Shown here: positions 1-56,571 of the stretch, piece after piece
How the letters are laid out: each line of letters opens with the position of its first letter
How positions within the stretch are numbered: the stretch's first letter is position 1
Origin: Botrimarina mediterranea
GTDB lineage: Bacteria > Planctomycetota > Planctomycetia > Pirellulales > Lacipirellulaceae
Assembly (NCBI RefSeq): GCF_007753265.1
Contig: NZ_CP036349.1
Span: 248,001-312,000, forward strand
Length of the DNA: 64,000 nucleotides
Direction of reading: 5' to 3'
Program-made: the position numbers and the translations under genes
Notes under the pieces: generated by a model
Database searches by the model: none
Seen by the model: only the letters and a program-made list of their open reading frames with translations
What the model was told of the DNA's origin: nothing

Positions 1-1461
1 TTCGAGCAGGCCGCCGATCGCCATCTTGCCGCCCACCACGCCGATCGAACCGGTGACGGTTGTCGGCTCGGCGAAGACATGGTCGCAGCCCATCGAGATG
101 TAGTAGCCGCCGCTCGCCGCGACGTTCCCCATGCTGGCGACGACTGGCTTCTCGATCGTCTGGATCTCGTTCCAGATCAGATCGCTGGCGACCGCCGACC
201 CGCCGGGGCTATCGACGCGGAGCACGATCGCTTTGACTTGGTCGTCTTCTTCGGCGTCACGCAGCGCCTTGACGATGGTCGTCGAGCCGACCGAACTGGA
301 CGCGCCGAAGGGGCTTGTCTCGCTCTCGCCCGTCATGATCGGGCCGACGGCATAGACGATGGCGATCTTGTCGCCGCGGCCGGACGATTCCTTGCCGCCC
401 GACGCGATCATGCCCAGCAGCTTGAACATGCCGCCGGGGCCGCTGAAATCGGTGTCGACCTTCTTCTTGCCGTAGTTCTCGACGAAGACGACGTTGTCCG
501 AGTCGTGCCGCTTCTCGAGCTCGTCACGCAGCGACGACTCGTAAGCCAGTCGGTCCACGAGGCCCGCCTCGAGAGCTTGCGACGCGGTCAGCAGGCCGCG
601 GTCCACCGCTTCGATGACGGCGCCTCGCTTCATCGGGCGGTCCATCGCGATCGTGTCGATCATCTGCTCGTACATGTCGTCGATGAGCGACGTCATGTTT
701 TCTTTGACCGCCTTGCTCCACTCGCGGCGTGTGTAGGGCTCAGCGGCGCCCTTCGCGTCGCCGACGTGAATGAAGTCCGCCTTTACGCCGACTTTCGCCA
801 AGAGGCCCTTGTAGAACATCGGCTGCGCGCGGACGCCCGGCAGCACGAGGTAGCCCGACTCGGGCATCACCACCTCGTCGCACGCGCACGCCACGAGGTA
901 GCTCGCGGCCTCGGCCGCTTCGAGCACCGCGACGGCATGCTTGCCCTTCGCGCGGAAGCGGGCGATCGCCTCGCGCAGCTCGTGCCGCTGTCCGGCGCCG
1001 TAGCTGGGGCTATCAAACAAGAGCACGAGTCCCTGGATCTTGTCGTCCTTCGCCGCCGCGTCGATTCGCGCGATCTGCTTCCGCAGGTCGATCGACAGAT
1101 CGCCGAACGGCCCCGACCCGCCGGGCGACTCGGGCAGCTCGTCGTCGAGCACGAACCAGGCGTAGCGGACCTTCTTCGACTCGGCTTCGGTCTTCTCTTC
1201 CTGACGCTTCTTGGCACGTTCACGGGCGCGCTTCTGGGCAGGGCTCAGTTCTTTCTCATCTTCCTCTGCTTCTTCCGCTGGCTTCTCCTCCGCTTCCGCC
1301 TCGTCGTTGTCTTCGGACTTCACTTCGGAAGCTACTGGTTTTGCTTCCGCCGTTGCGGGCTCGTCGGCGATGACGAGCGTGCCGGTAAAGGAGAGCGCGA
1401 GCGCCGCGGCGAGGCAGGCGGGCAGGAAGAGGCAATGTTTCATGGCGACTTGGCGTTTCAT
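1..1461 (-). CDS. sppA: Signal peptide peptidase SppA, S49 family (3' end outside window)
   Basis: Membrane-associated serine protease of family S49, expected to degrade cleaved signal peptides and other membrane peptides at the envelope. The 487 codons inside the window begin with a signal peptide or anchor (basic start, hydrophobic residues 10-31) and then an acidic, charged linker to about residue 95. Two S49 domains follow. The first carries the lysine of the Ser-Lys dyad at about K237 (DAKGAAEPY). The second has VDSPGGSAVAS and the nucleophile at about S450 in NVAASGGYY, so this is the long double-domain (67K-like) form. The frame is still open at base 1, so the C-terminus is missing. 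The ATG at 1461 is used; a second ATG at 1443 is also possible. Identification is secure from both catalytic motifs. Confidence 0.93.
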   Translation of the reverse strand, partial: MKRQVAMKHCLFLPACLAAALALSFTGTLVIADEPATAEAKPVASEVKSEDNDEAEAEEKPAEEAEEDEKELSPAQKRARERAKKRQEEKTEAESKKVRYAWFVLDDELPESPGGSGPFGDLSIDLRKQIARIDAAAKDDKIQGLVLLFDSPSYGAGQRHELREAIARFRAKGKHAVAVLEAAEAASYLVACACDEVVMPESGYLVLPGVRAQPMFYKGLLAKVGVKADFIHVGDAKGAAEPYTRREWSKAVKENMTSLIDDMYEQMIDTIAMDRPMKRGAVIEAVDRGLLTASQALEAGLVDRLAYESSLRDELEKRHDSDNVVFVENYGKKKVDTDFSGPGGMFKLLGMIASGGKESSGRGDKIAIVYAVGPIMTGESETSPFGASSSVGSTTIVKALRDAEEDDQVKAIVLRVDSPGGSAVASDLIWNEIQTIEKPVVASMGNVAASGGYYISMGCDHVFAEPTTVTGSIGVVGGKMAIGGLLE

Positions 1462-1790
1462 TTAGCCCACGGTCAACGACCGGGGGCTGCGGAACTTGAA
1501 TTGACAAACAGCTTTCGCCGGGCCGGCGGCGATCTTGCCGCCCCCTCGCCCGGTCCCGCTATCTTACCCCACCAGCCGGCGCCGGGGCCTAATCGATTTT
1601 CTGCGACCCGGGCGGCGTCAGCCCCCGGAGGACCCCTAGTACCTGGCAACTCCGGGAGCTGACGCTTCCCGGCTCGCACGGAGTCCACCGGTTGGCATCC
1701 GACTTTTTCTCTCTGGTTCGGCTCAAGTCCGGCTGCTACGGTCCGCGACGCTGTAATTTCCTGCTGCCCTTTCGCGGAACGGAGTCCGCC

Positions 1791-3035
1791 ATGGCCCTCG
1801 CCCGAATCACGCTTGCTATCGCCGCTGTCGCTATCGCCTCGCCGGCCAGCGCGCAGTTCTGGAACCTCTTCGGATCGAAGAAGGAGGAGCCCGCCAAGCA
1901 GGCCGCGCCCGCCGCTCCGGCGCACGCCGCCGGCTCGTTCCAGCTGACGCAGCAGTCGGGCCCGTGGCTGATCCTCGCAACGACCTTCTCCGGTGAAGGC
2001 GCCGAGGGGCAGGCCCGTGACCTGTGCGCCGAGATTCAGCGGACCCACCGCCTGCCCGCTTACGTCCACGAGATGACGTTCGATCTCACCGACAACCAGC
2101 CCGTCGGCCGCGGCGTCGATCGCTACGGCGCCCCGGTGAAGATGCGTTACCGCACCGGCTCGAAGCGCCAGGAATGGGCCGTGCTGGTGGGCAACTACCC
2201 GTCGGTCGATGACACAATCGCCGCCCGCGATCTGCAAGCGATCAAGGCCGCCAAGCCGCAGGCGCTGGAGATCGACGAGAGCGGTCACACGAACCAGAAC
2301 CTCGCCAATACGCGCGTCATGCTCGCCTCATGGACCGAGAAGAACGAGCAAGGCGGACCGATGCGAGCGGCGTTCATGACGCGCAACCCGCTGCTGCCCG
2401 ACTCGTACTTCGCGCCAAAGGGCGTCGATAAGTTCGTTGAGAAGATGAACAAGGACTTCGCTCACTCCGCGCTGAAGATCCCCGGCAAGCAGACGATCCG
2501 CGTCGCCACGTTCCGCGGCCGCGGCACCCTCGTCGGCGCGAGCCAGTCGCGCAGCAGCAAGTCGCGTCGCAAGAACGCCGAGACCGATCCGCTAATGGAG
2601 GCAGCCGAGAACGCGCACCTGCTCTGCGAAGAGATGCGGCGTAAGGGCTGGGAGGCCTACGAATTCCACGACCGCACCGAGAGCTGGGTCAGCGTCGGCT
2701 CGTTCGACAACGTTATCGACGCTAACGGTCAGCCGCACCCCGACGCGGTTGAGATCGTCCGCACGTTTGGCGCCGCTCACAACACGTCGCCGACGCCGCT
2801 CGACAAGCAACGCAATGCGCCCGCCGAGTCGGCCCGCGCCGCGGAGGTCAAGCAGCAATTCAACTCGCTCTTCAGCAGCGAGGTTGGCCAGATCGCCAGC
2901 GGCATGAACCCGAAGTACGCCCAGGTGGCGTTCGAGAAGGGCCAGCCCCCGCGTCCGATCCCTTTCGACGTCTACCCCGAGGCGATCGACGCCCCAAAGA
3001 AAAGCGTCAGTAGCGGCTTCGCTTGGCGCCCGTAG
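1791..3035 (+). CDS. Secreted protein with two SPOR-like repeats
   Basis: Protein of 414 residues whose function I do not recognise. It starts with a clear signal peptide (MALARITLAIAAVAIASPASAQ) at the ATG at 1791; the open frame extends further upstream but without a better start. A first repeat at about residues 55-140 has the pattern WLILATTFSGEGAE, a stretch with an RLPAYVHEM-type strand, then EWAVLVGNYPSVDDT. A second at about residues 240-310 has TIRVATFRGRG, a helix CEEMRRKGWEAYEFHD, then SWVSVGSFDNVID. This alternation of strand, helix and 'vGsf' strand resembles SPOR domains, which bind denuded peptidoglycan. The SPOR assignment is inference from pattern only. It stands alone between sppA (divergent) and rdgB. 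Confidence 0.75.
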   Translation: MALARITLAIAAVAIASPASAQFWNLFGSKKEEPAKQAAPAAPAHAAGSFQLTQQSGPWLILATTFSGEGAEGQARDLCAEIQRTHRLPAYVHEMTFDLTDNQPVGRGVDRYGAPVKMRYRTGSKRQEWAVLVGNYPSVDDTIAARDLQAIKAAKPQALEIDESGHTNQNLANTRVMLASWTEKNEQGGPMRAAFMTRNPLLPDSYFAPKGVDKFVEKMNKDFAHSALKIPGKQTIRVATFRGRGTLVGASQSRSSKSRRKNAETDPLMEAAENAHLLCEEMRRKGWEAYEFHDRTESWVSVGSFDNVIDANGQPHPDAVEIVRTFGAAHNTSPTPLDKQRNAPAESARAAEVKQQFNSLFSSEVGQIASGMNPKYAQVAFEKGQPPRPIPFDVYPEAIDAPKKSVSSGFAWRP

Positions 3036-3062
3036 GGGAATTGGTTCTGGGTAAGAAGGTAG

Positions 3063-3292
3063 TGGGCATGTTAGTGAGAGGGGGATCGCAAGCGAGCGGC
3101 AATGCCGAACGCGATCTCGGCTCAAAACACTGGGCAGCCTTTTCTCTTGTGCCATTGGAGATAAAAAATGCAGCCGCTCCGCGGACGCCTGTTATCTCCA
3201 AATGGCCCTATGACAATCTCACTACGTCGCTAAGAGCAGAAGGTCGTTACCCCTCTGCCCGGTCGCTTGCGACCCCCCCTATCACCAACATC
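3063..3292. repeat. Nested inverted repeat between two genes
   Basis: An outer pair of arms (about 3076-3100 and 3258-3282) shares the core TCGCAAGCGA. An inner perfect pair lies at about 3154-3164 (TGGAGATAA) and 3192-3199 (TTATCTCCA). It fills most of the 320-bp gap upstream of rdgB. It could act as a terminator or be a dispersed palindromic element. Confidence 0.6.
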
Positions 3293-3357
3293 CCCCTATC
3301 TCCTTCTCCGAGATCGTCCACTAGAAGCGACGCATCGGCTGCCCTAAAACGGGCCGC

Positions 3358-3972
3358 ATGAAGGCCCCCACGCTCGTTATCGGTTCGCGCAACGCCAAGA
3401 AGCGGGATGAGCTGGTTGGCTTGCTAGCGCCGCGGGGGATCGAGGTGAAGACGCTCGCCGACTTCCCGGACCTCACGCACGAGGTGGATGAGGACGGCGA
3501 TTCCTTCGAGCACAACGCCCGCAAGAAGGCGACCGAGTACGCCAAGGCCCTCGGCCACTGGGTGCTCGCCGACGACAGCGGCGTCTGTATCGACGCCCTC
3601 GGCGGGGCGCCGGGCGTTTACTCGGCCCACTACGCCGGCAAGCACGGCGATGACGCCGCGAACAACGCTCTGGTGCTCGAGAAGCTCGCCGGCCTGCCGC
3701 CCGAGAAACGCGGCGCGCACTACGTGGCGATGCTCGTGCTCGCCGACCCCGAAGGCTCCGTCCGCGCCGAGACCCGCGGCGAATGCCACGGCCGCATCCT
3801 CACCGAGCCGCACGGCGCCGGCGGGTTCGGCTACGACCCGCTGTTCGAGGTCCGGGAGTATCATCGAACGTTCGGCCAGATGGGCCCCGCCGTCAAGCGA
3901 GCCATCAGCCACCGCAGCCGCGCGATGCGAGCGATGTTGCCGCACGTGGTAAGGTTGGTGAAGCCAACTTGA
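3358..3972 (+). CDS. rdgB: XTP/dITP pyrophosphatase, RdgB/HAM1 family
   Basis: Cytosolic house-cleaning enzyme that hydrolyses non-canonical purine triphosphates (XTP, dITP, ITP) to monophosphates and pyrophosphate, so they are not built into DNA or RNA. The 204 residues match the usual length. The N-terminal substrate-binding motif reads VIGSRNAKKRDEL. The metal/base region reads FEHNARKKATEYA then ADDSGVCIDALGGAPGVYSAHYAG. The C-terminal signature is GFGYDPLFE and SHRSRAMRAM. The ATG at 3358 is the first in frame. Function is assigned by family with high confidence. Confidence 0.95.
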   Translation: MKAPTLVIGSRNAKKRDELVGLLAPRGIEVKTLADFPDLTHEVDEDGDSFEHNARKKATEYAKALGHWVLADDSGVCIDALGGAPGVYSAHYAGKHGDDAANNALVLEKLAGLPPEKRGAHYVAMLVLADPEGSVRAETRGECHGRILTEPHGAGGFGYDPLFEVREYHRTFGQMGPAVKRAISHRSRAMRAMLPHVVRLVKPT

Positions 3973-4005
3973 GCCGAAGGCGCTAGCCTCGGGCGGCGCC
4001 ACGAT
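3970..4005. repeat. Degenerate half-copy of the RAYT-linked REP palindrome
   Basis: TTGAGCCGAAGGCGCTAGCC followed by TCGGGCGGCGCCACG closely resembles the left arm of the palindromes at 15343 and 15903 (TTGAGCCGAACGCGCTAGCG then TCGGGCGCCACCG). The second arm is absent. It overlaps the rdgB stop codon region. Confidence 0.55.
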
Positions 4006-4017
4006 CAACGAACCATC

Positions 4018-5130
4018 ATGACAACCCCCGCCCCGCTCCTCGTCCAATCCAGCCTCGCCCCCGCGTCGGTCGTCTTCGTCCGCGAACTCCCCGGCCGCAA
4101 CGAGCGCTTCATCGAGCAACTCGCTGCGTGTTGCCGCGAAGTCGGCGCCGAGATGCACGTCGTCCCTGCCGGCGATCCGTATCCCGAGAACCAAGTCTGG
4201 CTGCAAGACGCCGTCGAGTTCCTTGAACGCGCGGACGGTTCCGGGACGGTCGCGCTGCTTGGCGTCCGCAACCAATCCGTCGATGACTTCGCGAAGGATC
4301 GGCTCACGGGAATCGAGACGCTCCGTATCGGCGCGTACCGGGAGGCGTTCGCCAGCGGCGCGAGCACCACGAGCACCCCTGGTGACGCCTGGATCGATTG
4401 GTTCGGCAACCTCGAAGCGTCGCCGCCTACCGCCGCGTGGCCCAACGGCCGCGTGCTGTACGGCGTGAATCCCGAGACGGGCGGGCAACTACACCCCGAG
4501 GTCGTCGCCTTCTTCACTGAGCAAGGCGCGCAGGCGCCGCTTGCGCTTGATGTCGGTTGGCTCACCGTGCGGCACGTCGATGAGATGTCGTCGTTCCTGC
4601 CCGCGAAGGACGACGGCTTCTTTGTCGCCGTCCCGGATCCAACGGCGGCGATCAAACTGCTAGAAAGCGCCGCGGCGCAGGGGCACGGCGGCGCGACGAT
4701 GCTCGCTCCTTATGAGAACGGGACGACGGTTCAATCCATCCTCGACGACACGGAGTTCGTCGCGTTCAACCACCGGTTGTGGACCGAACGCATCGAGCCG
4801 ATGTCGCGCGTACTGCTCGAAGGGATCGGCGTCGAGGCCGATCGACTGCGACGGTTGCCGGTGCTCTTCCAACCGAGCGGCGAGGCGCGGACGCCGAACG
4901 TCGTCAACTGTCTCGTGCTCCCGGGCACGGCTGGTGAGCCGGGCGTCGTCGCGATGTCCGAACCCTGCGGCCCCGTGATCGACGGCGTCGACCTCTTCAA
5001 GGCCGACATCGAGCAGCGGCTTACGGGGCTCGCCGCCCGCATCGCCTTCCTCGACGACCAGCCCTACCACCGGTGGTCGGGGAACGTGCACTGCGCGACG
5101 AATGCGATTCGCCCGCTGCGCCGGGAGTAG
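4018..5130 (+). CDS. Protein-arginine deiminase (PAD)-like enzyme, catalytic domain only
   Basis: Member of the guanidino-modifying superfamily resembling the catalytic C-terminal domain of animal protein-arginine deiminases, which convert peptidyl-arginine to citrulline. The four expected catalytic residues are all in place: D64 in VWLQDAVEF (animal WIQDEMEFGY), H186 and D188 in LTVRHVDEM, and C359 in GNVHCATNAIRP (animal GEVHCGTN). At 370 residues it lacks the N-terminal calcium-binding domains of vertebrate PADs and has no signal peptide. Agmatine deiminase is the main alternative, but the VGWLTV-HVDE and VHCATN blocks fit PAD better. Its substrate is unknown. It lies directly downstream of rdgB, with no partner gene. 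Confidence 0.75.
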   Translation: MTTPAPLLVQSSLAPASVVFVRELPGRNERFIEQLAACCREVGAEMHVVPAGDPYPENQVWLQDAVEFLERADGSGTVALLGVRNQSVDDFAKDRLTGIETLRIGAYREAFASGASTTSTPGDAWIDWFGNLEASPPTAAWPNGRVLYGVNPETGGQLHPEVVAFFTEQGAQAPLALDVGWLTVRHVDEMSSFLPAKDDGFFVAVPDPTAAIKLLESAAAQGHGGATMLAPYENGTTVQSILDDTEFVAFNHRLWTERIEPMSRVLLEGIGVEADRLRRLPVLFQPSGEARTPNVVNCLVLPGTAGEPGVVAMSEPCGPVIDGVDLFKADIEQRLTGLAARIAFLDDQPYHRWSGNVHCATNAIRPLRRE

Positions 5131-5158
5131 CGTCGGAGCCCGCTCCAAAGTACCGAAC

Positions 5159-5239
5159 AATGGCGAGCCCACGATGTTAATCGTGGGTGGAACCCTGAGA
5201 GCAATATCCCCCCACGATTAACATCGTGGGCTCGCCATT
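5159..5239. repeat. Perfect 29-bp inverted repeat with nested hairpins
   Basis: The arms at 5159-5187 and 5211-5239 are perfect inverse complements (29 of 29). Each arm also contains its own hairpin (CCCACGATGTTAATCGTGGG). It lies 28 bp after the deiminase gene and may serve as a terminator or be a mobile palindrome. Confidence 0.85.
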
Positions 5240-5344
5240 TGCCGCGGCGCCGGCCCGCCAATTGTGGCGTCACGCGCCGGAGTTGGTATGCTGCTAACCG
5301 GTCCTTTTCGTCTCGGCTGATCCCCCAACCGCCCCCGCACCGCC

Positions 5345-6277
5345 GTGGCCCGAATCCGCCTTCCGTTTCCGTCGCCCCGTCAGTCGTCGCGTGGCGGGTA
5401 CGGCCAGCAGCGCGCCCTCTTCGGCAACTCTTCGAGAGGCGGCAGCGGCCTCAAGATGCGGCTCCTGATCGCCGCGGGCTTCATCCTCTTCGCGCTGGTG
5501 AGCTACTACGGCAACCCGGGCGACGTGAACCAGATCACCGGTCAGCGCGAGCGTGTCGCCATCGCTGACGAGGAACAAGAGATGGCGCTCGGCCAGCAGG
5601 CGGCGCCCGAGATGGTGCAGATGCACGGCGGTGCTTCGCGTAGCGCGGACGGGCAAGCGCTTGTCAACAAAGTCGGCGCGGAACTGCTCACCGGTCTCGA
5701 TCGATGGATGGCGGAGAAAGAAGCGGAGACGGGCGTCGAACTTCATAACCCCTACAAGTTCAAGTTCACGCTGCTTGCCGACCCCCAGACCGTCAACGCC
5801 TTTGCCTTGCCGGGCGGGCAGGTGTTTATCACCGAAGCCCTTTTCAGCCGGCTCGAAACAGTGGGGCAACTCGCCGGCGTTTTGGGACACGAGATCGGCC
5901 ACGTCGTCGAGCGTCACGGTAACGAGCGGATGGCGAAGAACACACTCTTCAGCACCATCGCGATGGGCGCCGGCCAGATCGGCGGCGACGCGCAGAGCGT
6001 GCAGATGGCCCAGGCTGTCGCCAATGTCATCCAGATGAAGTATGGCCGCGACGACGAGCTCGAGAGCGACAAGTGGGGCGTGCTGCTCACCGAGAAGGCC
6101 GGCTACGACCCGCGCGCTATGATCGGCGTGATGAAAGTGCTCGACGAGGCGTCCCCCGGGGGCGGCCCGCCCGAGATGATGAGCACCCACCCCAAACCCG
6201 CCAACCGCGTCGCCTACATTCAGCAGGTGATCGAAGAGGTGTTCCCCGAGGGGGTCCGTCCGGGGTTGGAGCCGTAG
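5345..6277 (+). CDS. M48 family zinc metalloprotease, membrane-anchored
   Basis: Zinc endopeptidase of family M48 (HtpX/Oma1/BepA-like), likely acting on misfolded envelope proteins. The N-terminus is basic and glycine-rich, then one hydrophobic segment (about residues 40-54, LLIAAGFILFALVSYYG) anchors it. The zinc motif is HEIGH in GVLGHEIGHVVERHGNERMAK, and the third ligand is probably the first Glu of DDELESDKWGV. The C-terminal STHPKPANRVAYI motif is typical of the bacterial M48 periplasmic group. The GTG at 5345 gives 310 residues; an ATG at 5456 just before the hydrophobic segment is an alternative start. Confidence 0.88.
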   Translation: MARIRLPFPSPRQSSRGGYGQQRALFGNSSRGGSGLKMRLLIAAGFILFALVSYYGNPGDVNQITGQRERVAIADEEQEMALGQQAAPEMVQMHGGASRSADGQALVNKVGAELLTGLDRWMAEKEAETGVELHNPYKFKFTLLADPQTVNAFALPGGQVFITEALFSRLETVGQLAGVLGHEIGHVVERHGNERMAKNTLFSTIAMGAGQIGGDAQSVQMAQAVANVIQMKYGRDDELESDKWGVLLTEKAGYDPRAMIGVMKVLDEASPGGGPPEMMSTHPKPANRVAYIQQVIEEVFPEGVRPGLEP

Positions 6278-12222: not shown

Positions 12223-12331
12223 CGTAGGGTGCGATGAAATCGCACCTCCCCGGTTTCCCTCGGCGGGCAGAACGCCCTCCGATTGACGCGGTGATGGTGC
12301 GATGCCGCTGGCGCTTTATCGCACCCTACGA
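12223..12331. repeat. 109-bp palindromic repeat, CGTAGGGTGCGAT family (copy 1)
   Basis: Imperfect palindrome whose ends are CGTAGGGTGCGAT and ATCGCACCCTACG, with GAACGCCCTCCGAT in the middle. A second copy of identical length in direct orientation lies at 12971-13079, with about eight differences by eye. The pair brackets the SUFU-domain gene. Confidence 0.9.
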
Positions 12332-12396
12332 GCTACCTGCTATACGCTTTGATGGTAAGTTCCTTTATGCGGCTGAAGCATTTTCGGATTTGATTG

Positions 12397-12954
12397 ATGA
12401 ACTACTGCGATCACTTGAGAGTTCATTACGAACAGCAATGGTTGAACGACGCCATCGTCCGCTCTTGGGAATATGGTCCGAAAGAGCAGCTTGGCTCCGA
12501 GTTCTGCGTTCTGGAGTTTCAGCCAAATCAGTCACGTGACATGTGGACGTATGCGACATGCTGTATGTCTCAATCAACCGACGTTGCTCCCGTTGAGATA
12601 CATCTATTCTCTGGCATACAAACGAGCGATCATATTGAATTGCTTACAGCGATCGCACATTACCATAGAACCGGCAAGTGTCTTGAGCTGGGGCACGTCG
12701 TAAATTTCGGGCGTCCTTGGATTCCCGGGTCGGAATGCAATCATGGGGTGCTTTCGTTGCCCTACCTAGACGGCCCCAGCCTCGAAGAGTCTGCAACGCC
12801 ATTTAGTATCAATCCGGTGCGTTTTCTTTGGTTGATACCCATCACGGCTGCTGAAGCGACCTATGCGAGCCAGCAAGGCCTTCGAGCCCTTGAGGACCGA
12901 CTTGAAGACAACCAATTCAACTATCTTGACCCTCAGCGGCAGAGCGTCGTCTAG
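12397..12954 (+). CDS. SUFU-domain protein (immunity-protein-like)
   Basis: Protein of 185 residues matching the Suppressor-of-fused domain family. The pattern includes CVLEFQP, VEIHLFSGIQTSDHIELLTAIAHYH, GHVVNFGRPWIPGS, GVLSLPYLDGPSLEE and FLWLIPITAAEATYA followed by a LRALEDRLED helix. In bacteria, SUFU domains are common as immunity proteins in polymorphic toxin and contact-dependent inhibition loci. No toxin gene is adjacent, so it would be an orphan immunity gene. G+C is about half, clearly lower than the flanks, and it sits exactly between two 109-bp repeats, pointing to acquisition. ATG at 12397, preceded by an in-frame TTG. Confidence 0.8.
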   Translation: MNYCDHLRVHYEQQWLNDAIVRSWEYGPKEQLGSEFCVLEFQPNQSRDMWTYATCCMSQSTDVAPVEIHLFSGIQTSDHIELLTAIAHYHRTGKCLELGHVVNFGRPWIPGSECNHGVLSLPYLDGPSLEESATPFSINPVRFLWLIPITAAEATYASQQGLRALEDRLEDNQFNYLDPQRQSVV

Positions 12955-12970: not shown

Positions 12971-13079
12971 CGTAGGGTGCGATGAAATCGCACCTCTCCG
13001 GTTTCCCTTGGCGGGCAGAACGCCCTCCGATCGACGCCGTGAAGGCGCCATGCCGCTGGCGCTTTATCACACCCTACGA
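12971..13079. repeat. 109-bp palindromic repeat, CGTAGGGTGCGAT family (copy 2)
   Basis: Same length and orientation as the copy at 12223-12331. It begins 17 bp after the SUFU gene stop. The terminal inverted ends are slightly worn here (ATCACACCCTACG). Confidence 0.9.
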
Positions 13080-13318
13080 ACTAGCCGTCGGCGAGGGCGA
13101 ACGCTCGTCGGATGCCGCCGTCGCGGACGCCCCACCGGGGGCCCTCAGGGGGCCCGTTTGCGGCGTTCCAAGCCCCGGTCGACTAGATTGTCGTTGGCGG
13201 GTGCGAAACTTGTTGTACGACCCCGCTATGGCCGCCTAAACACCCGTTCACGGGGTGCGGTTGGCGGGGAGGGCGCCTCGACGTTCAAGCCCCCACAAGA
13301 TTCCCCGCTGCAGAGGGG
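13080..13318. other. Gene-free gap downstream of lepA
   Basis: About 240 bp between the repeat and the lepA stop codon. It contains a GGGGGCCCTCAGGGGGCCC stem-loop sequence near 13138-13160. I see no convincing gene. Confidence 0.5.
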
Positions 13319-15202
<1,884 letters not shown>

Positions 15203-15342
15203 TGCGGCTCGGGAGGGCGTCGGAGGGAGAGAGCGTCGTACCACGGCCGGCGCGCACCCCGACCCCGGGGCGGCAAAGGGCCGAAACCTTCTATTTGACC
15301 CCGGCGGGGGCTCGGACGGAAGAGCGACGAAGTCGCGATTTT

Positions 15343-15418
15343 GAGCCGAACGCGCTAGCGTCGGGCGCCACCGAGTGGGAAATCGCCCCTGACGCCGCCC
15401 GACGCTAGCGCGTACGGC
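15343..15418. repeat. REP-like palindrome flanking the RAYT gene (left copy)
   Basis: 76-bp imperfect palindrome beginning GAGCCGAACGCGCTAGCGTC and ending GACGCTAGCGCGTACGGC, with a variable centre. It ends 24 bp before the RAYT start codon. The matching copy is at 15903-15978. Confidence 0.9.
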
Positions 15419-15442
15419 GAAAGCCGCAACTACGATGCCGGT

Positions 15443-15898
15443 ATGCCTGATTACGCCGGCTTCTTGATCACCTGGACCACCTACGGAACCTGGCTGCCCG
15501 GCGACGCCCGTGGCTGGCGAGAGCGTAGCCGCGGCGTCAAACAGGCACGGCCGCTGCTCGAAACGTGGTGTCGCAACAAGCAAGTCCACGACGCTGTTCT
15601 GCTGCGCGAATGCGATCGGCAGACCGTCGAAGCGGCATGTCGTGAGCATTGCCACTACCGAGGGTGGGAGCTAATCGCGGTAAACGCCCGGACGAATCAC
15701 GTCCATGTCGTGGTGCTCGCCGGCGCCTCACCCCAAGCGGTGCGCGGTCAATTGAAGGCGAATTGCACTCGGCGTCTCCGCCGACAAGCCGATCCGCTGA
15801 AGGCGGAAAGAACTTGGAGCCGCGGCGGCGACTGTCAGATATTGCCCCATGAAAAGGCGTTAGAGGACGCCGTGATGTATGTCCTAGAAGGCCAGTAG
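15443..15898 (+). CDS. REP-associated tyrosine transposase (RAYT, Y1/HUH family)
   Basis: Single-strand HUH endonuclease of the IS200/IS605 TnpA superfamily, in the RAYT branch thought to mobilise REP palindromes. It has 151 residues with the RAYT start FLITWTTYGTWLPGDARGW, the HUH motif as HVHVVVL in TNHVHVVVL (about residues 94-100), and a C-terminal helix EDAVMYVLEGQ containing a candidate nucleophilic tyrosine. Two matching 76-bp palindromes flank it closely, the classic REPtron layout. The gene appears intact. RAYTs are usually single-copy chromosomal genes, so it may be resident rather than freshly acquired. Confidence 0.9.
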   Translation: MPDYAGFLITWTTYGTWLPGDARGWRERSRGVKQARPLLETWCRNKQVHDAVLLRECDRQTVEAACREHCHYRGWELIAVNARTNHVHVVVLAGASPQAVRGQLKANCTRRLRRQADPLKAERTWSRGGDCQILPHEKALEDAVMYVLEGQ

Positions 15899-15900
15899 CC

Positions 15901-15982
15901 CTGAGCCGAACGCGCTAGCGTCGGGCGCCACCGGATGGCGGCATATCCCTAACGCCGCCCGACGCTAGCGCGTACGGCTCAA
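15901..15982. repeat. REP-like palindrome flanking the RAYT gene (right copy)
   Basis: It has the same arms as the left copy (GAGCCGAACGCGCTAGCGTC and GACGCTAGCGCGTACGGC), in the same orientation, with a different centre. It begins 3 bp after the RAYT stop codon and ends 4 bp before the duplicated dnaE end. Confidence 0.9.
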
Positions 15983-15986
15983 ATCT

Positions 15987-16196
15987 CTACGCCCGTGCCG
16001 GTTCACGCTTCCCCCACTTCTTCGCCGCAGGCGCCTTCGGCGGCGGGGCTCCGCCAGTGAGGCGGAAGGCGCCGGGACCTAGGAGGTCATCGACTCTCGT
16101 GCATAGCTCTTGCGTCAGGTCCACGCCCTTCGGGCAGTCGAGTTGAACTCGGCCGCCGTCGCTGAGGGCTAGGGTGAGCTTGAGCGACTTGGCGCC
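15987..16196 (-). pseudogene. Detached duplicate of the dnaE 3' end (70 codons including stop)
   Basis: This 210-bp stretch aligns without gaps to the true dnaE end at 16632-16841. I count 23 differences, about 89% identity. Read on the minus strand, it is still an open frame, with the TAG stop at the same place and the same ending (GKREPARA). Similarity stops abruptly at GGCGCC (16191-16196). It has no start and cannot be a gene by itself. It lies exactly 645 bp from the intact copy. Confidence 0.9.
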
Positions 16197-16277
16197 GCGA
16201 CGCCGTTAAGAAGTCACGTGCGACACGTATCGAAATGGCAAACCTGAACTGCGCACTAATTTATGCGATCAGCACAT

Positions 16278-16613
16278 TCATTCGCTGATGAACAGCATTG
16301 CCAAGGGTGAGGCAGCGGTTAGTCCAAGTGCAAGCACGACAGCCGCCGATCGCCAGCGCTTAAGTATCAGCAGGCTGACGGTAAGAAATAGATTGAATAG
16401 GGAATGGCCGATGGTAGTTTGAAGTAAGATGGCAAAGGCAAATAGTTCGTCGCCTGCCAAGAAGCTATTTGAGTGTGTAATTAGCCGAATAGCACAGATT
16501 CCAATTACGACTACCGCAATCACGAATGCCACCACGGCATACGTGAATAGCCAACTTGCTGGTTCGCGGTTACGGCTTTGCGGTGTGAGTTGGTCGGGAA
16601 GGATTGGCTTCAT
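16278..16613 (-). CDS. Hypothetical small membrane protein in a low-G+C insert
   Basis: Protein of 111 residues, not recognised. Three hydrophobic segments are visible: about 22-42 (WLFTYAVVAFVIAVVVIGICA), 55-78 and 88-108. G+C is in the low to mid 40s percent by eye against mid 60s around it. It lies between the intact dnaE end and a diverged duplicate of that end, so it appears to be cargo of an insertion or recombination event. It is oriented like dnaE and could be read through from it. No clear ribosome-binding site. Confidence 0.6.
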   Translation of the reverse strand: MKPILPDQLTPQSRNREPASWLFTYAVVAFVIAVVVIGICAIRLITHSNSFLAGDELFAFAILLQTTIGHSLFNLFLTVSLLILKRWRSAAVVLALGLTAASPLAMLFISE

Positions 16614-16631
16614 ATTGTGCAGTTTTAGAGA

Positions 16632-19600
16632 CTAGGCTCGCGCGGGTTCGCGCTTGCCCCATTTCTTCGGCGTAGGCGCCTTCGGCGGCGGGGCGCCGCC
16701 GGTGAGGCGGAAGGCGCCGGGGCCTAGCAGGTCGTCGACTCTCGTCCGTAGCTCTTGCGTTAGGTCCACGCCCTTCGGGCAGTCGAGTTGAACGCGGCCG
16801 CCGTCTTCGAGCGCTAGGGCGAGCTTGAGCGACTTGGCGCCGGGGTAACCGCGGAGGATTTCTCGTAGCGATTCGAGGCGTTCGACGCCGTCCGCTTCGC
16901 GAAGGCTGATCACCACGCCGCTGGTGTACCGCTCCGAGAGTTCTTCGATCGGCATCAGCTCGTTGACGATCAGGTTCACCTCCTCAGCGCCGGGGCGGCG
17001 GTCGACGGCGCCGCGGATGCCGACGATCGCGTCGCCCGTCACCAAGTGCCCGAACTGGGCGAACTGCTCGGGCCACATGATGCAGCGCATGATGCCGTCC
17101 ATGTCCTCCAGGTCCCACATGGCGTACTTGCTCGGCGCGCCGGGCTTGGGGTTCTTGGTGTGCGACATCTTGATCGCGGCGAGCATGCCGCCCATCACGA
17201 CCTCGGTGCGGTGCTCGAGGCCTCCGCACTGCGTGCTGGAGTGGCTGCAGAAGGTGCGTAGCGTCTGCTCGTACTCGGCCAGCGGGTGGCTGGAGAGGTA
17301 GTAGCCGAGGACCTCCTTTTCCATCGTGAGCCGCTCTTTCTCGTCCAGCTCGGGCACGTCTGGCAGCGGCGCGGGGGCGGCGGCGGCTTCGATCTCTTCG
17401 CCGAACAGGCCTTTCTGGCCGCTCTTGCGGTCGGCCAGCACCGACGCGCCCGACTGCATCGCCTTGTCGATGCCCGCCATCAGCGACGCGCGGTTCGCGC
17501 CGAAGACGTCCATCGCGCCGGCCTTGATAAGCGTTTCGATTGTCGAGCGGTTGCACGACGAAGGATCGACGCGCTCGCAGAAGTCGTAGAGGTCCTTGAA
17601 GGGGCCGCCCTTCTTGCGGGCCGCGACGATCGCTTCGGCCGCGCCGCCGCCGCACGCCTTGATCGCCGAGAGGCCGAAGATGATTTTGAAGTCGTGCTTG
17701 TAGCCCTCCTCCTTGTGGGGGACGACGGCGAAGTCGACGCTGCTCGTATTCACTGTCGGCGCGTCGACGGCGATGCCCATTCGCTCGCAGTCCTCGATGT
17801 GCTCGACGAGCGCGTCCTTGCTCTTGAAGTTGCGGCCAGGGATGTCGCCCGAGAGGAGCGCCGCCATGAACTGCACGGGGTAGTGCGCCTTAAGGTAGGC
17901 CGTCATGTAGGCGATCAGGGCGTACGCCGTCGAGTGGCTCTTGTTGAAGCCATAACCGGCGAACTTCTTGATCATCTCGAAGAGGTCCTCGGCCTTCTTC
18001 TTGTCGAGGCCCTGCTCTTGCGCGCCCTTGAGGAACTCCTCGTAGAACTTGGCGATCATCGGCAGCTTCTTCTTGCTGATCGCCTTGATGCAGCTGTACG
18101 CCTCGGAGAGCGGGATCTTGCCGAGGCGGTTGAGGATCCGCATCACCTGCTCTTGATAGACCATGACGCCGTGCGTCTCGGCGAGCACCTCTTCCATCAC
18201 GGGGTGGGGGTACTCGGCGGGGCGGCGGCCGTGCTTGACCTCGATGTACTGATCGACCATGCCGCCCTCGAGCGGCCCCGGCCGATAGAGCGCGGCGGTG
18301 GCGATGATGTCGAGGAAGTTGTCGGGCTTCATCCGCTGCAAGAGGTCGCGGATGCCGCCCGACTCGAGCTGGAAGATGCCCTTCGTCTCGCCGCGGCAGA
18401 GCAGCGCGTACGACTCCTTGTCGTCGATCGGGAACTCGTAGGGATCGACCTTCTCGCCGGTCGATTGCTCGATCAGCTCGACGCTCTTGGCGAGGATCGT
18501 CAGGTTGCGGAGGCCGAGGAAGTCCATCTTCAGCAGGCCGGCCGCTTCGACGTCGCCCATCGCCCACTGGGTGATGACTTCCGTCTTGCCTTTGACGCGT
18601 TGCAGCGGCACGTACTCGTCGACCGGTTTCTCGCTGATCACGACCGCCGCGGCGTGCGTGCCGACGTTGCGAGCCAAGCCCTCGACCTTCTTGGCGAGGT
18701 CGAGCAGCTCGCGGATCTCGGGATCGCCCTCGTACGCCTTCTTCAGCTCTTCGCTGGTCTCCAAAGCCTTCTCGAGCGTGATGCCCAGTTGCTCGGGGAC
18801 CATCGCCGTGATCTGGTCGACGCGGAAGATCGGCATCGACATCGTGCGGCCGACATCCTTGATGGCGGCACGCGCCGCCAGGGTTCCGAACGTGCCGATC
18901 TGGGCGACGTTCGCCTCGCCGTACTTGTCTTTAACGTACTGGATGACCTCGCCGCGACGCTCTTTGCAGAAGTCGATATCGATATCGGGCGCTTCCAGCC
19001 GGCTCTCGTCGAGGAACCGTTCGAACAGCAGGTCGTACTGCAGCGGGCAGACGTGGCTCATCCGCAACGCGTAGCAAACGATCGAGCCCACGCCCGATCC
19101 ACGCGCCGTGGAGGGGATGTTGTTCTCGACCGCGAAGCGGACGAAGTCCCAGACGATCAGGAAGTAATCGGGGAAGCCGAGCTTGTTGATGACGCCCAGC
19201 TCGCGATCGACGCGGGCGAGCACTTCGTCGGACAACTCCCCGGTAGAGGCGTCGCCATTCTGCCAACGTTCGGGCGTCTTGGCGTAACGTTCCTTGAGCC
19301 CGCTCAGCACCAGTTCGCGCAGGTACGCCTCGGACGCCTTGATGTCGGGCTTGTCGTTGTTCGGCGCGGTGAACGTCGGGAAGTAGCGCTTGCCGAGTTC
19401 GAGGTCGAGATCGACCGAGTCGGCGATCTCTTGGCTGCGGGCGACGGCGTCGGCCACGTCGGGCATCGCCGCGTACATGTCCTCGGGCGCGCGGAGGTAG
19501 AACTGATCTCCCTCCATCTTCATGCGGTTGGTGTCGGTGCGGAAACGCCCCGTGTTGATGCAGAGCAGAACGTCCTGCGCCTCGGCGTCCTCCTGGTTGA

Positions 19601-20258
19601 CGTAATGCGCGTCGCTCGTGGCCACGAGCGGCAGGCCCTGCCGGTTGGCGAGCTCGACCGTCAGCTCCTTCGCCGCGCGTTGGATCTCGACGCCGTTGTC
19701 CTGGATTTCGAGGAAGTAACGGTCGCCGAACACTTTACTGAACCAGCCGGAGATCTCGGCGCCGCGGGCCATCGCTTCGTCGGCCGACGCGCCGGAGAGC
19801 AGGCTGCGTGAGAGCTCGCCCGACACGCAGCCCGACAGGCAGATGATCCCCTCGTTGTGGTCGGCGAGCAGTTCCTTGTCGATCCGCGGCTTGTGATAGA
19901 AGCCTTCGAGGTACGCCCGACTCGCCATCTTGACGAGATTGCGGAAGCCGGCGCGGTCCTTCGCCAACAGCGTGAGGTGGTAGGCGGCCTCCTTGCTGCG
20001 CGTGGCGCCCTCTTTCTCGAACCGGCTCCCCGGCGCGATGTAGGCCTCGTAGCCGACGATCGGATTGATCCCCTCCGCCTTGCACGCCTTGTAGAACTCC
20101 AGCGCGCCGTAGAGGTTGCCGTGGTCGGTGAGCGCCAGCGCGTTCATGTTCAGCTCTTTCGCGCGAGCGACGAGCTTCTTCACCGGGCTCGCCCCGTCCA
20201 GCAGCGAGTAGTGGCTGTGGCAATGGAGGTGAACGAACGGGCGGGTGATGACTTCCAT
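16632..20258 (-). CDS. dnaE: DNA polymerase III alpha subunit
   Basis: Catalytic subunit of the replicative DNA polymerase (family C, DnaE1 type), 1208 residues starting at the ATG at 20258. The N-terminal PHP domain opens FVHLHCHSHYSLLDGASP. The palm domain has ARGSGVGSIVCYALR and the catalytic acidic motif APDIDIDFCKERRGEV. The fingers include GYGFNKSHSTAYALIAYMTAYLK. The C-terminal OB domain (TEVVMGGMLAAIKMSHTKN) and tail follow. The frame is uninterrupted, with no intein. The upstream gap holds a GTGGGCAG-rich repeat. Its last 69 codons plus the stop are duplicated downstream at 15987-16196. Confidence 0.97.
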   Translation of the reverse strand: MEVITRPFVHLHCHSHYSLLDGASPVKKLVARAKELNMNALALTDHGNLYGALEFYKACKAEGINPIVGYEAYIAPGSRFEKEGATRSKEAAYHLTLLAKDRAGFRNLVKMASRAYLEGFYHKPRIDKELLADHNEGIICLSGCVSGELSRSLLSGASADEAMARGAEISGWFSKVFGDRYFLEIQDNGVEIQRAAKELTVELANRQGLPLVATSDAHYVNQEDAEAQDVLLCINTGRFRTDTNRMKMEGDQFYLRAPEDMYAAMPDVADAVARSQEIADSVDLDLELGKRYFPTFTAPNNDKPDIKASEAYLRELVLSGLKERYAKTPERWQNGDASTGELSDEVLARVDRELGVINKLGFPDYFLIVWDFVRFAVENNIPSTARGSGVGSIVCYALRMSHVCPLQYDLLFERFLDESRLEAPDIDIDFCKERRGEVIQYVKDKYGEANVAQIGTFGTLAARAAIKDVGRTMSMPIFRVDQITAMVPEQLGITLEKALETSEELKKAYEGDPEIRELLDLAKKVEGLARNVGTHAAAVVISEKPVDEYVPLQRVKGKTEVITQWAMGDVEAAGLLKMDFLGLRNLTILAKSVELIEQSTGEKVDPYEFPIDDKESYALLCRGETKGIFQLESGGIRDLLQRMKPDNFLDIIATAALYRPGPLEGGMVDQYIEVKHGRRPAEYPHPVMEEVLAETHGVMVYQEQVMRILNRLGKIPLSEAYSCIKAISKKKLPMIAKFYEEFLKGAQEQGLDKKKAEDLFEMIKKFAGYGFNKSHSTAYALIAYMTAYLKAHYPVQFMAALLSGDIPGRNFKSKDALVEHIEDCERMGIAVDAPTVNTSSVDFAVVPHKEEGYKHDFKIIFGLSAIKACGGGAAEAIVAARKKGGPFKDLYDFCERVDPSSCNRSTIETLIKAGAMDVFGANRASLMAGIDKAMQSGASVLADRKSGQKGLFGEEIEAAAAPAPLPDVPELDEKERLTMEKEVLGYYLSSHPLAEYEQTLRTFCSHSSTQCGGLEHRTEVVMGGMLAAIKMSHTKNPKPGAPSKYAMWDLEDMDGIMRCIMWPEQFAQFGHLVTGDAIVGIRGAVDRRPGAEEVNLIVNELMPIEELSERYTSGVVISLREADGVERLESLREILRGYPGAKSLKLALALEDGGRVQLDCPKGVDLTQELRTRVDDLLGPGAFRLTGGAPPPKAPTPKKWGKREPARA

Positions 20259-20267
20259 GACAGGCAG

Positions 20268-20301
20268 AGTGGGCAGTGGGCGGTCGGCAGTGGGCAGCAG
20301 C
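20268..20301. repeat. GTGGGCAGT-type repeat upstream of dnaE
   Basis: Contains GTGGGCAGTGGGCGGTCGGC then AGTGGGCAGCAG. A related palindrome is at 46679-46768. It lies a few bases upstream of the dnaE start codon, in its 5' leader. Confidence 0.55.
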
Positions 20302-20389
20302 GAAGCGAGCAAGATTTTGTGAGCCGGGCCGTCCCCGGTCCCGGCCGCCCCATGATACGGCATTCCCCCGCCCGTGCTAAACTGCCGCG

Positions 20390-43174: not shown

Positions 43175-43744
43175 CCTCGAAGTATCTCCCGAAGGAGGCT
43201 CTAGGAGAAGGAGTTGGGGGGATGGCTGGTTGGAACACGGGGTGACGGGGCAGTTCGAGCCGCGGTTTTGTGACGGTGTTTTCTCCGAGGAGATAATGGG
43301 GATGGGGCCTTCATGGGGCGGTGCCAGATGGGGTGGTTGGGGCCCTAGGACGCGTTGATATTCTTTGGCGACGCAGTCGCGCTTATCCCCCTCCTTCTTC
43401 AGAGGGAGGGGCTAGGGGAGGGTGTTGAAGCGGGTACCCACTTCGCCCCCTCCCCTAACCCCTCCCCCTAAAGGGGGCGGGGGATAAAAAGCGACTGCGT
43501 CGCCGAGGAATGTCACACGCCATAGCGGCTTCAGACTTCTATTTTGCAACCAGTGGCTCCCCGCCCCCACCATCTCGCCATCCCCAATATCTCCTCATAG
43601 CCGGCTTGCTGCCGGACGCGGTAAGGCAGCTCACCGCTCGTCCGTTTTCGAAAAGGCCATCCCCCCATCACCTTTGCTTAGCACCGCCTCAGTAGCCATA
43701 ATCTGCCCGTCTTTCCAAGCTTCCCCTGTTGATCGAAGAAACGC
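43175..43744. other. Gene-free gap dominated by a large palindrome
   Basis: 570 bp between divergent genes at 43174 and 43745. It contains the 43367-43504 palindrome. The remaining sequence has no credible gene. Confidence 0.6.
43367..43504. repeat. 138-bp palindrome, CCCCCTCC...GGGGGAT family (copy 1)
   Basis: The outer arms GGCGACGCAGTCGC (43367-43380) and GCGACTGCGTCGCC (43491-43504) enclose CCCCCTCCTTCTTCAGAGGG...AGGGTG and its inverse CCCCTCCCCCTAAAGGGGGC. A second copy of the same length is at 56329-56466. Confidence 0.9.
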
Positions 43745-56282: not shown

Positions 56283-56328
56283 GGCAGCATGGAGTTCGCG
56301 GTGGGGCCTTTGGCGTGTGACGTTGCTA

Positions 56329-56466
56329 GGCGACGCAGTCGCTTAGATCCCCCTCCTTCTTCAGAGGGAGGGGCTAGGGGAGGGTGCTGAAGCGGGTACC
56401 CGGCGCCCCCCATTCCCCTAGCCCCTCCCCTAAAGGGGGCGGGGGATCTCACGCGACATCGTCGCC
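56329..56466. repeat. 138-bp palindrome, CCCCCTCC...GGGGGAT family (copy 2)
   Basis: Same outer arm GGCGACGCAGTCGC and inner CCCCCTCCTTCTTCAGAGGG, then AGGGGCTAGGGGAGGGTG, as at 43367-43504; the right outer arm has changed to GCGACATCGTCGCC. It separates the CPFC gene from the DUF3299 pair. Confidence 0.9.
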
Positions 56467-56571
56467 TATGAACGTCAGCACGCCTCCTACAGACCATCGA
56501 TGGGGTCTGAGACTTTCTATCTTACGGTAGCAGCCGGCCCGGGTTCGCCCCCAAACTTGCGGTCGGCCTCT

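Follow-up and report, generated by a model that had tools for sequence, protein, structure and literature searches.

This study asks how the end of an essential replication gene came to be present twice. In the 64-kb stretch of the Botrimarina mediterranea genome analysed here (the window, to which coordinates refer unless they carry a genome label), the 3' end of dnaE, the gene for the alpha subunit of DNA polymerase III, is found on both sides of a small A+T-rich gene. We conclude that the duplication is most likely a recombination scar, of a rare kind that has already been described. We put the probability at roughly 55% that it was left by one-sided homologous recombination with DNA from a sister lineage, a process called homology-facilitated illegitimate recombination (HFIR).

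Structure of the duplicated dnaE 3' end

The dnaE gene is on the minus strand (16632..20363) and is an open reading frame of 1243 amino acids, assigned with Pfam and NCBIfam. It appears to be intact: five Pfam domains are present (PHP, DNA_pol3_alpha, finger, HHH_6 and OB-fold), and its score against the NCBIfam model PRK05673.1 is 1269 bits, above the cut-off of 1002. Among the matches listed for dnaE, from at least 80 loci, the best are to planctomycete metagenome-assembled genomes, the top one at 71%. The same genome also holds a second, distant dnaE-like gene (G000:C1:818737-821829), which shares 32% identity with dnaE along most of its extent.

The initial annotation had reported that the 3' end of dnaE is duplicated at about 89% identity, with 23 differences, no gaps and the same stop, and this was confirmed both by a repeat finder and by alignment. 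The repeat finder gives a direct repeat of 211 nt (15987-16197 and 16632-16842) that is 89% identical, with 645 nt from start to start. The alignment shows 23 differences over 210 nt, and the two copies are ungapped and have their reading frame and stop position in common. The duplicated unit consists of the last 70 codons of dnaE, in direct orientation. No longer direct repeat was reported for the window (minimum length 50), and a match of this extent is far beyond what would be expected by chance. Copy 1 (16632..16842, minus strand, direct repeat D1) is the 3' end that dnaE uses. Copy 2 (15987..16197, minus strand) is an outer, untranslated relic of the 3' end, and lies in the native 3' context.

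The two edges of the repeat are of different kinds. At 16197/16198, on the copy 2 side, there is an abrupt non-homologous joint, where 22 of 22 nt are identical just inside the repeat and 3 of 18 nt agree just upstream. The other edge is continuous, in that the body of dnaE runs into copy 1 with no visible crossover point or donor tract. Copy 2 has neither a gap nor an internal stop. It can be ruled out as a working gene, because an in-frame TAA stands upstream of it, three codons before the first whole repeated codon, and the single open reading frame of at least 20 amino acids in its frame has just 45, starting from an internal GTG. A mis-assembly is unlikely because the copies are 11% divergent; moreover, the genome is a single contig of 5.87 Mb, in which the 856-bp region is present once.

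The insert and its open reading frame

Between the two copies is an insert of low G+C content (16198..16631). Its length is 434 bp, one base fewer than the 435 bp first reported, and its A+T-rich character is upheld, the G+C content being 0.49 against 0.65 in both the window and dnaE. No match to it is found at dnaE in the three genus relatives G001, G002 and G003. The insert holds the small gene that had been described, an orphan open reading frame of 111 amino acids from the list of open reading frames (16278..16613, minus strand), with its ATG 18 nt past the dnaE stop. By eye, the hydrophobic product has three stretches that are putative membrane helices. GC3 is 0.51 in this reading frame and 0.90 in dnaE, and the insert is thus compositionally foreign.

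The protein has no significant match in Pfam (two hits below threshold were not relied on) and none in NCBIfam or PADLOC. One weak match, of residues 6-51 to a PHROG membrane-protein family (E 3.7e-4), was likewise not relied on. No other genome containing it was found among 43 genomes of the family or 392 of the phylum. Among 296 genomes of the order there is no clear homologue: besides the protein itself there are two weak partial hits at 39%, which were taken as chance. These three genome sets overlap. There was also no match among viral contigs or in the plasmid collection. An integrase or recombinase is absent from the insert, whose sole open reading frame of note, the hydrophobic one, was assigned to no recombinase family. 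The predicted fold at the junction of the dnaE stop and the insert includes a short G+C-rich stem, formed where the dnaE coding sequence ends, which is ordinary in comparison with shuffled sequences (z -1.28). Since there is no unusual hairpin at this point, and the orphan reading frame starts so close to the dnaE stop, it is probably transcribed together with dnaE.

Comparison with relatives

The dnaE protein is 90% identical to that of G001, 88% to that of G003 and 86% to that of G002. Each of these genomes gives one tail match: all three have a single tail and no insert, and the 645-bp unit that the initial annotation had thought worth seeking in sister strains is absent from dnaE in all of them. 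In the 296 genomes of the order, which are an even draw from a larger group, the dnaE tail was detectable in 167, and two tails were found in one only, namely B. mediterranea; outside the genus this search is weak, because the tail is poorly conserved there. Among the genomes searched, the duplicated tail with its insert is found in B. mediterranea alone.

The relatives also indicate which copy is native. A pair of REP palindromes follows the dnaE stop after 4 nt in G001 and after about 16 nt in G003, while none is found there in G002. In B. mediterranea, paired REP palindromes (REPIN-like; 15902..15983, inverted repeat I5) lie about 4 nt past the stop of copy 2, with a predicted RNA fold of -64.3 kcal/mol (z -7.95), and the alignments with G001 and G003 continue from copy 2 across the stop into the REP. 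The stop of copy 1 is followed by the insert, and not by the REP that follows dnaE in G001 and G003. Alignment with relatives, as had been recommended, therefore identifies the outer copy as the one with the native 3' flank of G001 and G003, and places copy 2 in the ancestral 3' context. This in turn points to the copy now joined to dnaE as the one that arrived, or was re-formed, with the insert.

Divergence between the two copies

The 23 differences fall 5, 1 and 17 at the first, second and third codon positions, and change five residues, or six if the partly repeated codon at the edge is included. They correspond to a dS of 0.339 and a dN of 0.051, giving a dN/dS of 0.149; the dnaE body compared with G001 gives 0.163. 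The codon changes are thus mostly synonymous, as the initial annotation had suggested checking. The excess at third positions over all 23 differences has P 8e-5, a figure that mixes both branches. When the differences are polarised using G001 and G003 as outgroups, seven are unique to copy 1 (six of them at third positions) and ten to copy 2 (again six), with six assigned to neither. For the changes unique to copy 2 alone, 6/10 at third positions gives P = 0.077, and the four at positions 1 or 2 include R to C and A to T. When neutral decay of copy 2 is simulated, the first two codon positions collect a mean of 15 to 17 changes, against six in the whole pair (P 0.02 to 0.05 depending on mutation bias), and about half of the simulated copies acquire a stop. 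This suggests that the copies diverged as two working genes, a signal that is weak for copy 2 alone. Whichever history holds, a recent relaxation of copy 2 is likely.

The copies differ from each other at 23 positions, from G001 at 42 and 47, and from G003 at 39 and 41. At ten sites both copies have the same base, differing from the base common to G001 and G003. GC3 is 0.82 and 0.78 in the two copies and 0.905 in the dnaE body. Because of these ten joint sites, and because both GC3 values are below that of the dnaE body, it is concluded that the two copies share much recent ancestry. There is no clear step in the third-position distances along dnaE that would mark a mosaic break. The distance to G001 is 0.41 in the last stretch of 70 codons and 0.17 to 0.34 in every earlier one. 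If a faster-changing tail is allowed for, the donor would belong to a sister lineage that is closer than G001.

The initial annotation had proposed that one 3' end came from a related lineage. Moderate support for this comes from the 17/23 third-position differences, the dN/dS of 0.149 and the relatives, which have neither second tail nor insert; on the other side, the changes unique to copy 2 (6/10, P = 0.077) are less decisive.

Origin of the duplication

In the HFIR reading, a linear fragment from a sister lineage would have carried at least its dnaE end, followed by the small A+T-rich gene. The fragment would pair with the resident dnaE and cross over inside it, and its non-homologous end would be attached by illegitimate recombination at a point some 210 bp short of the stop of the resident dnaE. 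The outcome would be, in order, dnaE with a donor 3' end, the foreign gene, the cut-off resident tail, and the resident REP and downstream DNA, so that the whole anatomy would be produced in one event. Copy 1 would then be derived from the donor, at least in part. We infer the direction of transfer, the donor, the crossover point and the end-joining step, as we do the co-transcription. No donor genome was found among the genomes searched, and the direction and the crossover are therefore unproven.

Several features support this model. One continuous and one abrupt edge are what it predicts; the insert is foreign in composition and is absent from dnaE in 3/3 genus relatives; the native REP flank follows copy 2, which is free of gaps and internal stops; two tails were found in just one of the 167 order genomes with a detectable tail; and the tail differences are mostly synonymous. 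A simple donor story is harder to reconcile with the two copies being more alike than either is to the relatives, with their ten joint sites and lower GC3, and with the lack of a clear mosaic step in dnaE. Against HFIR itself, the changes unique to copy 2 are weakly coding-like (P = 0.077), the neutral simulations give P 0.02 to 0.05, and no further case was found in the 14.5% of the genome that was compared. A ComEC domain is encoded in the genome, which is compatible with DNA uptake; it is also found in 10/14 control genomes, and is thus widespread and no proof of competence. No Ku homologue (for non-homologous end joining) was detected in the genome. Neither the presence of ComEC nor the absence of Ku decides the mechanism.

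HFIR is known from laboratory crosses in three naturally competent species, and has been inferred in genomes. It is also described, as a rare event, in E. coli conjugation (PMC3240628), and one report suggests it as the origin of variable segments in bacterial genomes (PMC2884548). The dnaE locus resembles such cases in having an abrupt non-homologous edge opposite a putatively homologous one, with foreign DNA gained beside a conserved anchor gene. It differs from them in that a replication gene provides the anchor with its 3' end, and that the donor is a putative one. In Vibrio T6SS clusters, as described in PMC5361080, the old 3' end of a gene has been shifted behind a newly acquired module, and HFIR was tentatively proposed there. 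These displaced T6SS/Rhs 3' ends and orphan immunity genes are similar to the present case, in that an incoming module supplies a gene with its 3' end and the previous end is left behind that module; there, however, the gene encodes a toxin with variable ends, whereas here it is dnaE, both ends encode approximately the same peptide, and no toxin-immunity role has been shown.

An older and purely local history is possible but unlikely. The 3' end of dnaE would have been duplicated in place, the small gene placed between the copies either at that time or afterwards, and copy 2 left to drift as a dead sequence. The initial annotation had considered a simple old tandem duplication to be sufficient if the two copies were closer to each other than to all relatives and the insert was conserved in them. 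The copies are indeed mutually nearer (23 differences, against 42 and 47 to G001 and 39 and 41 to G003), and the ten joint sites and the copy 2-unique changes at codon positions 1 or 2 (4/10, including R to C and A to T) also favour such a history; the insert, however, is not conserved in the three relatives, and being foreign it would still need an explanation of its own. In addition, a neutral copy would be expected to gain about 15 to 17 changes at the first two positions rather than the six of the whole pair (simulated P 0.02 to 0.05), and copy 2 is ungapped and free of internal stops, where about half of the simulated copies gain one. The overall dN/dS of 0.149 also argues against a neutrally evolving copy 2, although the changes unique to copy 2 alone give P = 0.077. 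An old duplication fits the codon pattern less well than HFIR.

The initial annotation had also raised an integrating element that restores the gene end it interrupts. Such a remnant, of a site-specific element that targets the dnaE 3' end with a replacement tail and has been reduced to about 435 bp, seems to us improbable. Its model is e14, whose integration in icd leaves a duplicated 163-bp icd end (PMC6379469). The layout is the same, with a gene bearing an element-borne tail, then the insert and then the displaced original tail, and according to that source the tails differ little; here, in contrast, they are 11% divergent over 210 bp, and there is no integrase in the insert and no element. 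The identical run of 22 nt is found right at the 5' edge of the repeat, the position expected for a core, but such a run is unexceptional beside one of 32 nt inside the copies, and no att core can be defined. A second tail was found in 0/166 other genomes of the order with a detectable tail, a test that is weak outside the genus, and 0.4 kb would be very small for a remnant. Of the two routes originally put forward, the better fit is recombination that replaces the end of a gene, in which one joint would be homologous and the other illegitimate. Single-crossover (Campbell-type) integration of a small circle, carrying the sister dnaE tail and the orphan gene, would result in the same direct-repeat layout, and linear DNA in E. 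coli can, according to PMC3240628, be ligated into a circle and then integrate by a single crossing-over. We consider this less probable again: it requires a circle with just the dnaE end and the insert, under it each copy should be a hybrid containing a crossover point, and neither the plasmid collection nor the viral contigs yielded a match to the insert protein.

Neighbouring repeats and rearrangements

A Y1/HUH transposase reading frame (15443..15898, plus strand) lies between two REP pairs, namely the one that follows copy 2 and a second at 15340..15420, which was located with the repeat finder and by motif positions. It matches PF01797 (Y1_Tnp) with 30 bits (cut-off 23), falls below the cut-off for the NCBIfam IS200 transposase, and is presumably RAYT-like. 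In G001 a 72%-identical Y1-transposase region follows dnaE at the corresponding place, but its orientation with respect to dnaE is reversed, an inversion of a kind that inverted REP pairs can allow. Members of the REP family are scattered through the B. mediterranea genome and those of its relatives. Synteny around lepA, as seen in G001 and G003, extends as far as 15329, right next to a REP pair. The genes dnaE and lepA are neighbours here, and are far apart or on separate contigs in the three relatives, so that a rearrangement break must lie at or near a REP (15330-15340).

A gene with a SUFU domain (12394-12954; PF05076, E 1.1e-16; G+C 0.51) is flanked by two copies of a dispersed, palindromic repeat of 113 bp (12223-12335 and 12971-13083). 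Identity is 92% between the flanking copies and 69-76% between them and the other matches in the genome. The SUFU gene has a 71%-identical relative at G000:C1:105795-106365. In G001 the gap before lepA that corresponds to this region contains other small reading frames, one with a G+C content of 0.53. It is a highly speculative idea that conserved genes of this planctomycete group offer their 3' ends as docking sites for tiny integrase-free cassettes, each of which would be addressed by a gene end that matches and would make the gene whole again as it enters, and that the SUFU gene between its repeats is a related product. The repeats around the SUFU gene resemble the dnaE case in part, but they are not a gene end and may reflect a different process. 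Elsewhere in the window, a repeat of 160 bp (43356-43515 and 56318-56477; 81% identical and 13 kb apart) is rich in C- and G-runs, has no long open frame in common, and is probably a dispersed intergenic element.

Recurrence in the genome

In about 850 kb (14.5% of the genome), comprising the window and 40 other stretches, there was no further case of a duplicated gene end enclosing a low-G+C insert. This self-comparison covered 862,001 bases, including 12 kb of overlap, and was made for repeats of at least 60 nt lying 100 to 6,000 apart, so that shorter or more diverged pairs would be missed. Several other repeat pairs that touched gene ends were considered and rejected. The pair at L148/L170 (90%) consists of two adjacent long open frames of 472 and 468 amino acids; those at L130 (74%), L154 (70%) and L164 (70%) resemble tandem paralogues; and at L160 two genes have a short C-terminal stretch in common. 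The pair at L165 (83%) is REP-like: palindromes unlike those of the window in sequence (L165:3875-4552, corresponding to G000:C1:4653875-4654552) bracket a reading frame at 3939-4457 (minus strand) that by eye resembles the Y1 transposase of the window, and the G+C content between them is 0.58.

Implications

The dnaE locus provides a natural example of how a bacterium may gain a small foreign gene beside an essential gene without a mobile element, while the essential protein is kept whole. The gene end that is left behind serves as a record of the event. Displaced 3' ends that can still be aligned, lying behind genes of low G+C content, could be counted across genomes, and would give a rate of gene gain by one-sided recombination.
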